Positions 10,303-12,036 of a stretch of 41,048 nt of DNA are shown here, piece by piece. Location of the stretch: positions 1-41,048 of IMG/VR virus record IMGVR_UViG_3300036985_001383; one strand, 5' to 3'. This stretch comes from a virus. A model generated the notes under the pieces. That model was not told where the DNA came from, made no database searches, and saw only the letters and a program-made list of their open reading frames with translations. A program made the translations under genes and the position numbers. Each line of letters opens with the position of its first letter. Positions within the stretch are counted from its first letter, which is position 1.

Positions 10303-10486
10303 AGAATACGCTAAAGATAATGGATTTGTGCAGCTTACAAATACATACCATCTGCCAAAAGAACAAAAGATGATGGATTCTGTACTAAAAGATGCACGGA
10401 ACAACAACAAAGAAACTTGCCTAGTCGCCACCGAACAGGGTGCTGAAGTATGGCAAAAACTCAACCCACCAAAAACAAAAGAATAA
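10292..10486 (+). CDS. Small early protein (64 aa)
   Basis: ATG at 10292 overlaps the end of the preceding gene. The product is polar and Lys/Asn-rich, with MTTKEYAKDNGFVQLTNTYH at the start and ETCLVATEQGAEVWQKLNPP near the end. It looks like a small soluble domain; no family is recognised. Its stop lies 2 bases before the ATG of the SSB-like gene. Confidence 0.62.
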   Translation: MTTKEYAKDNGFVQLTNTYHLPKEQKMMDSVLKDARNNNKETCLVATEQGAEVWQKLNPPKTKE

Positions 10487-10488
10487 AT

Positions 10489-10755
10489 ATGGAATACGAC
10501 AACACAAACAAGGGGTCACTATTTAAGAATGATCGCAAAGAACAAGACACACACGCAGATTACAATGGTTCGATTAACATCGAAGGAAACGAATACTGGA
10601 TCAACGCATGGGTAAAAGAATCCAAGAAGGATGGAAAAAAGTTCTTCAGCTTGTCAGCGAAACCAAAGGATCAAGTGGCAGGTAAAAGCCCTGTAAAGGC
10701 CAAATCTGCTCCAGCAAAGTCCAAGGATGACGATGGATCGGAAATTCCTTTTTGA
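10489..10755 (+). CDS. SSB-like ssDNA-binding protein with acidic DDDGSEIPF tail
   Basis: An 88-residue protein beginning at ATG 10489 (leader GAATAAAT). The core GSLFKNDRKEQDTHADYNGS, NIEGNEYWINAWVKE and FFSLSAKPK resembles a small phage single-strand-binding/DUF736-type beta barrel. After a Lys/Ala/Pro linker (about 61-79) it ends in DDDGSEIPF, the hallmark acidic tip of bacterial SSB proteins through which partner enzymes are recruited. The tip plus small barrel supports ssDNA binding during phage replication. An upstream in-frame ATG at 10450 lies inside the preceding gene. A structured leader starts right at its stop codon. Confidence 0.72.
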   Translation: MEYDNTNKGSLFKNDRKEQDTHADYNGSINIEGNEYWINAWVKESKKDGKKFFSLSAKPKDQVAGKSPVKAKSAPAKSKDDDGSEIPF

Positions 10756-10893
10756 CCTATGATATTTGCTTTCCTTTTTACTCTGCATAGGTCAGTCCCG
10801 CAGGTTACAGGATTTCCTCGCTTAATTGGGAATTCCCGATAGCAGGGGCAAAGGGGGTTGGCTGTGACCCCAAAAACCACAGCCACATTTTTT
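10754..10893 (+). promoter_or_regulatory. Structured leader with competing hairpins (attenuator or riboswitch candidate)
   Basis: Non-coding stretch between the SSB-like stop and ATG 10927. From 5' to 3': GACCTATG (10754-10761) pairs perfectly with CATAGGTC (10786-10793). GGTTACAG (10803-10810) can pair with CTGTGACC (10862-10869, one G-U). The palindrome GGGAATTCCC is at 10828-10837. GGCTGTG (10860-10866) pairs with CACAGCC (10878-10884), followed by a T-run. The second and last pairings share 10862-10866 and so exclude each other, an antiterminator/terminator layout. It is locally G-rich compared with its surroundings. It matches no riboswitch class I can recognise by eye. Confidence 0.55.
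10860..10893 (+). terminator. Rho-independent terminator upstream of the 10927 gene
   Basis: Perfect 7-bp GC-rich stem GGCTGTG/CACAGCC (10860-10866/10878-10884), 11-base loop, ACA then TTTTTT (10888-10893). It would end transcripts from the replication block or act as the off-state hairpin of the leader above. The open frame that runs through it from a TTG at 10858 is not the true start of the next gene. Confidence 0.72.
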
Positions 10894-10926
10894 ATTGCTA
10901 CCATCCCAAAAAACGCTGACCATATT

Positions 10927-11211
10927 ATGAAAGATAAAGAGATTAAATTAGCATGGAATGAGTTGTCCATTTTGCGTGAATTTATTTGGAATAATTCAGA
11001 CGCTTTAAAAGAATATATTGAAAGTGAAGGTTATGATTATTTTATGGCAGCAATAATTGAAGATAATATTATTAAGTCTATTGAAGAAGACTATTCGGAA
11101 GAAATGAATAAAAAAAACTATTTAACGCATGATAAAGCTAAAAAAGGGCTTAAAAAATTCATTATTGAAAATGAAGAAGCATTATCAGCAGGGTTTGGAT
11201 TTTCTGTATGA
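10927..11211 (+). CDS. Acidic helical protein downstream of the attenuator-like leader (94 aa)
   Basis: Start at ATG 10927, because upstream codons would translate the terminator hairpin. The protein is acidic and helical: KLAWNELSILREFIWNNSDA, LKEYIESEGYDYFMAAII, then EDYSEEMNKKNYLTHDKAKK. No family is recognised. The gene is distinctly AT-rich. If the leader is a switch, this and the two overlapping genes after it are what it controls. The stop overlaps the next ATG. Confidence 0.65.
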   Translation: MKDKEIKLAWNELSILREFIWNNSDALKEYIESEGYDYFMAAIIEDNIIKSIEEDYSEEMNKKNYLTHDKAKKGLKKFIIENEEALSAGFGFSV

Positions 11212-11465
11212 TAAGTGAAGGAATGAATTTTGAACAGGCAATGATAATATACGCAGCGGCGTGTTGCGCTACCGTTGGTGCATTGTCTAATGAACTTGAT
11301 GAAGCATTAATACAAAATGAAACAATACCAGATCCACAACGACAAGAGGTTCTATCTAATTATCCTCGCAACTTCGTTGACATTCTAATCGAGCAAGGGA
11401 AGCCTCATTTAGTCGATCCTTTTATAAATAAACTAAACGCAATAATTGACGAACTGAATAAATGA
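11208..11465 (+). CDS. Early hypothetical protein (85 aa)
   Basis: ATG at 11208 overlaps the preceding TGA, and its own stop overlaps the resolvase start. Residues 8-30 are hydrophobic (FEQAMIIYAAACCATVGALS), which could be a weak membrane segment or buried helix. The rest is polar with YPRNFVDILIEQGKPHLVDP and a C-terminal helix. Function unknown; cotranslation with the resolvase suggests the same expression timing. Confidence 0.66.
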   Translation: MISEGMNFEQAMIIYAAACCATVGALSNELDEALIQNETIPDPQRQEVLSNYPRNFVDILIEQGKPHLVDPFINKLNAIIDELNK

Positions 11466-11833
11466 ACTGGACTGAAGATCAATTAAAAGAGAAAGGCTAT
11501 TATAAAGCAGCAGATGGAAACTATTACTTTACACCTACACGGGTATCTAACCCCGTCACTAAACGTCCTGCTAGGAAAGAATTATTGGATACTAATAAAA
11601 CACAAAAAGCAAGCTCAAAACGCATTGCGTTACGCATTACTAGATACTCAACAAGACTCCTCGATGAAGATAACCTTGCGGGATCAAAGTTACTCACAGA
11701 TCAATTACGATATGCTGGAATCCTTCCTTCAGATGACCCGGGATCAACAAAAATTATACTCCAGCAAGTCAAAGTTAAAACCAAAGCGGAAGAATGTACG
11801 AAAATCGAAATCAGCGACAAGCTGATAGATTAA
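11462..11833 (+). CDS. RusA-like Holliday junction resolvase
   Basis: A 123-residue protein. After an N-terminal module of a kind common on phage nucleases (LKEKGYYKAADGNYYF) comes the RusA-type catalytic block: LLDEDN with D68 and D70-N71, K76, D80 in KLLTDQLRYAGILPS, and D91-D92, followed by KVKTKAEECTKIEI. RusA enzymes are dimers that resolve Holliday junctions using conserved acidic residues. Here the enzyme would debranch replication intermediates before packaging. It is the last rightward gene and converges on the leftward block. A second open frame inside it (11514-11825) is a shadow. Confidence 0.78.
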   Translation: MNWTEDQLKEKGYYKAADGNYYFTPTRVSNPVTKRPARKELLDTNKTQKASSKRIALRITRYSTRLLDEDNLAGSKLLTDQLRYAGILPSDDPGSTKIILQQVKVKTKAEECTKIEISDKLID

Positions 11834-11877
11834 AAAGACACCCTTCCCCTGCGCGTCCACAGGAGTCACCTGTCCAT
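11834..11877. other. Convergent junction between early and leftward genes
   Basis: Forty-four bases separate the stops of the converging genes. The hairpin ACAGG (11859-11863)/CCTGT (11869-11873) with a 5-base loop is visible, without a T-run on either strand. It may help end both transcripts, but it is not a classical terminator. Confidence 0.35.
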
Positions 11878-12036
11878 TCAGGTTCGCTTATCGGGGTGAA
11901 GTTTTGAAGACGCTTTTCGATGCGCTGACCAGTCGATCTCGTCAAAGTTTGCGCGATACTTCTTGCGGTCAACTGGACGTTCTTCATCGCCTTTTCCAGC
12001 TTGTCCAGACCACTCAGACTTCTTAATGTTTTCCAT
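11878..12036 (-). CDS. Small charged phage protein (52 aa)
   Basis: ATG at 12036, TGA at 11880-11878, 52 residues. The sequence MENIKKSEWSGQAGKGDEER, PVDRKKYRANFDEIDW, then a basic tail is of a type I recall from other phages (GKGDxxRPVD-KKY-xNFDxIDW). Function is unknown. It is the last gene of the leftward transcript and overlaps the previous gene by 14 bases. Confidence 0.65.
   Translation of the reverse strand: MENIKKSEWSGQAGKGDEERPVDRKKYRANFDEIDWSAHRKASSKLHPDKRT

Follow-up and report, generated by a model that had tools for sequence, protein, structure and literature searches.

Knowledge of structured RNAs that act in cis in phages comes from only a few models. EAR, which occurs in exopolysaccharide operons of Bacillales, is one structured RNA that contains pseudoknots and lies between cistrons of a single operon. 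The preQ1-I and SAM-II riboswitches are small H-type pseudoknots with an A-rich loop near the start codon. Among phage RNAs, put of HK022 is a folded RNA of ~70 nt that acts in cis in early operons and comprises two stem-loops near the promoter (PMC9378689). The operator of T4 gene 32 consists of a ~28-nt pseudoknot plus an unstructured leader (PMC535899). This leader pseudoknot is bound by the single-stranded DNA-binding protein, which represses gene 32 (PMC535899, PMC3014915).

The DNA analyzed here (designated the window) comprises all 41,048 nucleotides of IMG/VR virus record IMGVR_UViG_3300036985_001383. Positions 10813–10884 contain one copy of a structured RNA family in which a P1/P2 hairpin precedes an H-type pseudoknot (Table 1). 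A covariance model, R1, matches window positions 10810–10885 with a score of 49 bits (E 1e-10). These RNAs probably constitute a new family of structured phage RNAs that act in cis.

Table 1 Features of the structured leader and its neighbors in the window
Feature	Position	Strand	Basis
ssb-like upstream gene, C-terminus DDDGSEIPF-stop	10450..10755	+	PHROG 18154, E 2.4e-16; homologues in 54 viral loci
Upstream hairpin CTGC-ATAGGTCAGTCCC-GCAG	10783..10803	+	Arms covary around invariant loop GGTCAGTCCC
P1 5′ strand UUUCCUC-GC	10813..10821	+	Covariance model R1 and P1 pair counts
P2 hairpin (includes GGGAATTCCC palindrome)	10825..10840	+	Pair counts, 13 relatives
P1 3′ strand GC-A-GGGG-C-AAA	10842..10852	+	P1 pair counts, covariance model R1
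S1: GGGG 10854–10857 with CCCC 10868–10871	10854..10871	+	Sequence; S1 of cassette A covaries
S2: GGCUGUG 10860–10866 with CACAGCC 10878–10884	10860..10884	+	Compensatory change in L287
L3 loop AAAAAC	10872–10877	+	A-rich pseudoknot loop
T-run	10888..10893	+	Minority of cassette-B copies
Remnant of cassette-A 3′ half, CATCCC-AAAAAA-CGCTG-ACC	10902..10921	+	R1 partial match 10902–10913; arrangement shared with L058, L299, L315
94-aa downstream gene	10927..11211	+	Homologues directly behind cassette A in L068/L094/L105
RusA-like resolvase, third downstream gene	11462..11833	+	PHROG 34, E 4e-4; 12 viral relatives

The element has a length of ~70–75 nt. Its common form, read from relatives, is ATTTCCTCGC-[hairpin]-AGCAGGGG-NAAA with a G-run and the pseudoknot behind it. 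P1 is formed by UUUCCUC-GC paired with GC-A-GGGG-N-AAA and is capped by P2, a hairpin of variable sequence. The pseudoknot occurs as one of two cassettes. Cassette A is 28 nt long and reads NGG / GGG / S2 (5 bp) / CAU / CCN / AAAAAA / S2′, while cassette B, present in the window, reads GGGG / UU / GGCUGUG / A / CCCC / AAAAAC / CACAGCC. Both cassettes form an H-type pseudoknot by base pairing between the first-helix loop and downstream sequence, and in both the third loop is A-rich.

An H-type pseudoknot is expected to contain two crossing helices that covary, and this was found: S1 and S2 change independently of each other, each with compensatory substitutions. S1 of cassette A occurs as GGG/CCC, AGG/CCU, CGG/CCG, UGG/CCA, GGC/GCC, and GCG/CGC; the variants of S2 include CAGCG/CGCUG, CCGCG/CGCGG, CUGCG/CGCAG, GAACG/CGUUC, and GGACG/CGUCC. 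Across 41 distinct full-length cassette-A sequences, a set selected partly by pairing, 98.7% of cells are paired and 8 pairs show double-sided changes. Across 28 pseudoknots from mixed backgrounds, which were largely selected in the same way, 98.2% of cells are paired compared with 75.6% in shuffles, and double-sided changes occur in 6 of 8 pairs of the crossing helices. The covariation score of these 28 pseudoknots is 0.542 as opposed to 0.110 in shuffles, and falls to 0.07 or below once the partners are slid.

Because these sets were selected partly by pairing, an independent set was built from sites chosen by P1/P2 sequence alone. The pseudoknot pairing test is passed by 56 of its 72 distinct sites (3 of which are themselves chance sites) and by 4% of shuffles; the sites that fail are mostly accidental matches to the pattern, contigs that are cut short, or nearly matching copies that contain a bulge or mismatch. 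Pseudoknot A or B is present at nearly every site of this set with a following G-run. P2, examined in 13 relatives, is 95% paired with both-side changes in 3 pairs. Cassette B is nearly invariant and provides one clear compensatory change (GGTTGTG/CACAACC in L287). Columns 9 and 38 of P1 form a U-G pair in 40 of 41 sequences, which points to RNA and argues against a DNA palindrome. Comparison of the related sequences shows the element to be an RNA fold under selection.

Searches of IMG/VR with the ssb-like and RusA-like neighbors returned 54 and 12 viral loci, respectively. The close relatives L002 and L058 contain the 3′ hairpin of the window; the more distant L003, L057, and L063 differ in the corresponding 3′ part, which has no T-run and adjoins an ATG. 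The element is present at well over 100 distinct IMG/VR sites, and pattern scans for its parts recovered it from viral contigs in numbers far above chance; a first broad scan, with many chance matches among those listed, was left out of all counts. On the fetched loci, a structure-only descriptor identified 114 distinct cassette-A sites (selected partly by pairing, with a few attributable to chance) compared with 4 in shuffled sequence. A separate scan for cassette B identified 29 distinct sites, each directly behind the 5′ part containing P1/P2. Of 46 virus records, 41 contain a match to the covariance model, almost always a single main copy.

Rfam 15 at the gathering threshold gave no match in the window or 8 relatives, and its relaxed mode returned only a chance match to mir-202 (E 0.71). 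The element was not found in 50,697 phage records, where no cultured carrier was seen and chance matches extended only ~22 nt, and we found no earlier description of it in the literature. A strict pattern applied to 84,980 genomes gave only two matches, both in Chloroflexi metagenome-assembled genomes (L328 and L329). Each harbors cassette A without P1/P2, ~10 nt upstream of genes that are homologous between the two (MNMQIGQRKLMHHP.. / MNLQIGKRKLMNQP..). Two such genomes with the pseudoknot only are too few for host assignment.

A reading made from the window sequence alone had interpreted this leader as an attenuator or riboswitch in which terminator and antiterminator pairings exclude each other. 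All of the pairings it listed exist, and it rightly recognized that this phage replication operon contains a structured leader that is real, unusual, and outside the known Rfam classes. The proposed terminator is the GGCTGTG/CACAGCC stem followed by TTTTTT. As an isolated 25-nt hairpin, which was chosen by eye, it has a folding energy of −10.1 kcal/mol (z −4.5); folding of the entire window leader is similar to that of dinucleotide shuffles (z −0.79). An intrinsic terminator would have a conserved, GC-rich stem with a short loop directly before the U-run. This hairpin deviates, with a loop of 11 nt and a T-run that begins 3 nt past the stem, and a consensus terminator scan of the window found nothing there; to call it a good terminator was an overstatement. 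A T-run of at least 6 follows about one third of the 29 distinct cassette-B copies, the rest having 2–5, and cassette A, carried by most family members, has none.

The antiterminator, GGTTACAG at 10803–10810 paired with CTGTGACC at 10862–10869, fares no better. An attenuator would conserve such a competing pairing, but at the homologous upstream position it is complete in just 2 of the 29 distinct cassette-B copies, those of the window and L270. The partner reads GGTTTCAG in L002/L058 (7 of 8 matching) and GTTAACAG in L298/L299/L315 (6 of 8 matching), and most of the 29 copies contain nothing comparable to GGTTACAG. The exclusive switch between the two pairings thus does not hold across the family. 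The 5′ arm of the supposed terminator is also the loop strand of the pseudoknot, the GGGG/CCCC helix of which that reading did not list. Rather than being mainly a terminator, the GGCTGTG/CACAGCC hairpin is helix S2 of the pseudoknot.

The covariation that had been suggested as a check was found for the S2 stem and for the 10-bp palindrome GGGAATTCCC (10828–10837), which is the window version of P2, but not for the antiterminator pairing or the outer 8-bp stem (GACCTATG at 10754–10761 with CATAGGTC at 10786–10793). This outer stem is present in the window but confined to near relatives. We rejected it as a conserved feature: L114 has a weakened version (AAACTATG), and the stem cannot form together with the conserved CTGC/GCAG hairpin, the arms and loop of which overlap it. 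In relatives, the arms of the latter hairpin occur as CTGC/GCAG, ACCTAC/GTAGGT, ATCTAC/GTAGAT, and ACCTGC/GCAGGT. A hairpin with the GGTCAGTCCC loop recurs in many loci, in some as P2 of the element and in others as a hairpin of its own upstream. We also considered and rejected a pairing between the GGUCAG loop and CUGACC in the tail of the pseudoknot; L057 retains the loop with CGCGGAC as its tail, and the two do not covary.

Phages with flanks ~90–97% identical and the same P1/P2 carry either cassette, A and B substituting for one another. In the window, cassette B is followed by an orphan 3′ half of cassette A, as it is in L058, L299, and L315. This segment is a remnant that stayed behind when cassette B took the place of the 5′ half of cassette A. 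L068, L094, and L105 contain an intact cassette A directly before the homologue of the window gene at 10927. Several contigs (L280/L212, which are one 49-kb contig, L225, L227, L278, L282, L298, and L333) start or end inside the element or at its edge, and both ends of one contig meet exactly within the G-run. These breaks suggest mixed cassettes in the population or assembly trouble.

P1 usually starts 3–10 nt past a stop codon. This distance is larger in the group that includes the window, where an extra hairpin or tRNA intervenes. In L287, L295, L307, and L095, the upstream gene is separated from P1 by tRNA or tRNA-like genes; ARAGORN, run on L095 alone of these four loci, identified tRNA-Arg there. 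The window itself contains no tRNA or tmRNA. The distance from pseudoknot to the next ATG is commonly 8–32 nt and otherwise 36–180 nt, with other sequence intervening in some loci in which the ATG is 70–180 nt away. Pseudoknot-only copies in L005, L193, L252, and the two Chloroflexi genomes lie ~10–14 nt before an ATG. We considered and rejected a role as stimulator of stop-codon readthrough or recoding because the downstream frame is not constant (41, 36, and 27 in phases 0, 1, and 2, with stops in most).

The element lies on the coding strand in the early operon, whatever genes flank it. These genes (ssb, PHROG 2698/378-like, Sak4, exonuclease, primase/helicase, and helicase) belong to one functional block. 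The gene immediately downstream varies and may be ssb-like, Sak4, helicase, or a small gene without assigned function. In some groups ssb (PHROG 378/4932-like) lies downstream; in the window group it lies upstream.

Other conserved sequences occur nearby. Downstream of ssb in L019, L020, L022, L023, L025, L026, and L029–L031, the same slot is occupied by a different conserved element with a promoter-like TAGAATAAC..CAGAGGGAAAGCGGATGCTG ... GCAGCGAGTACCTC, of which L020 appears to have two copies; the loci scanned gave no Rfam match for it. Behind the pseudoknot or ssb in L104, L119, L071, L109, and L060 is a structured-looking conserved sequence, GGGATTGTAGCGGC..CTGGTTATCATTTGACCC..GTAACTACATAAAACC, that sits between the pseudoknot and the next ATG and in which ARAGORN calls no tRNA in the loci tested. 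Between the rightward and leftward gene blocks of the window, positions 11838–11900 are GC-rich and potentially structured (CACCC...GGGGTG), have no Rfam match, and are probably a bidirectional terminator region.

We propose that the element is a new cis-acting phage leader RNA. That its main action would be on translation of the next cistron is a reading to which we give an even chance. It is favored by proximity to the start codon, including that of the pseudoknot-only copies. The RNA, which lies at an intercistronic junction of the replication/recombination block, would work within the mRNA. Located at the edge of the ribosome-binding region of the next gene, the pseudoknot may serve as a binding site for a protein, in analogy to T4 gene 32; alternatively, it may be a docking structure for the ribosome. 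P1 usually lies so close behind the upstream stop codon that terminating ribosomes could melt it and thereby couple both cistrons. A gene-specific operator fits poorly because the downstream gene is not constant, and simple ssb autoregulation fails in the window group because ssb lies upstream there.

The main rival is a processive antitermination or anti-pausing RNA akin to HK022 put or B. subtilis EAR, in which the transcript would bind RNA polymerase in cis and allow read-through of the remainder of the early operon. Although unlikely, this explanation is kept alive by the element's independence of flanking genes and its occurrence at about one copy per genome, on the coding strand of an early operon; its size of ~70 nt also equals that of put (PMC9378689). 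However, put consists of two stem-loops near a promoter, whereas the element is a helix plus pseudoknot that lies mid-operon and abuts a start codon. It is improbable that the element serves in mRNA processing or stability, with a pseudoknot that stops exonucleases and thereby makes the stability of the segment upstream (ssb) independent of that downstream. The compact fold immediately 3′ of stop codons, the gene-independent placement, and the tRNA genes directly upstream in some relatives would agree with such a role, but the strong sequence conservation of the L1 GGG, CAU, and A6 loop is more suggestive of specific recognition than of a simple roadblock.

Quite improbable is a trans-acting small RNA, a replication primer, or a recombination boundary at which cassettes are swapped by homologous exchange. 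The A/B replacement between similar flanks, the variable neighbors, and the contigs that break inside the element are in its favor; against it are the RNA-type covariation with U-G pairs, the tight fit between stop and start codons, and the absence of a promoter in a scan limited to the sigma70 type. The attenuator or riboswitch, in which a ligand, protein, or translation would shift the leader between its two pairings, is very improbable. In its favor are the presence of both pairings in the window and the T-run of at least 6 in about one third of cassette-B copies; against it are the antiterminator that is complete only in the window and L270, the lack of a T-run in cassette A, the 11-nt loop, the 3-nt gap, and the negative terminator scan. 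No ligand-linked or metabolic gene association was seen at element loci.

More broadly, it is tempting to speculate, and we do so tentatively, that the element represents a widespread new class of phage regulatory RNA, modular and present once per genome, that controls expression of the replication block through a mechanism for which known riboswitches, T4-type operators, and put would not account. A strongly covarying, single-copy pseudoknot RNA found in many uncultured phages next to unrelated genes is a concrete target for study. The natural exchange of cassettes A and B, together with the covariation of S1 and S2, provides ready compensatory variants with which to study the timing of ssb, Sak4, and exonuclease expression in phages. 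The locus also illustrates how an apparent attenuator in a single genome becomes recognizable as part of a pseudoknot through comparison with relatives.

The element resembles preQ1-I and SAM-II in its H-type pseudoknot, A-rich loop, and nearby start codon, but differs from them in its stable, multi-base-pair S2 and in having no Rfam match and no metabolic gene association that we could see. With EAR it shares the arrangement of one intercistronic pseudoknot RNA per operon; its fold and size are different, and it has no match in Rfam. Like put, it is a folded phage RNA of ~70 nt in an early operon, where it would act in cis; unlike put, which has no pseudoknot of such type, it combines a helix with a pseudoknot. 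By analogy, the T4 gene 32 operator would be its closest functional counterpart. The element differs from that operator in its extra P1/P2 domain; no sequence relationship has been established, and no UUAAA repeats of the T4-operator type were seen in the element. A downstream ssb, as in the T4 arrangement, is found in some groups but not in the window. The two are alike as intercistronic leaders within a replication block, with ssb involved or adjacent in many loci, and in architecture: the 28-nt cassette A is commonly followed by 8–32 nt to the ATG, a spacer that, being A/C-rich, is probably unstructured.
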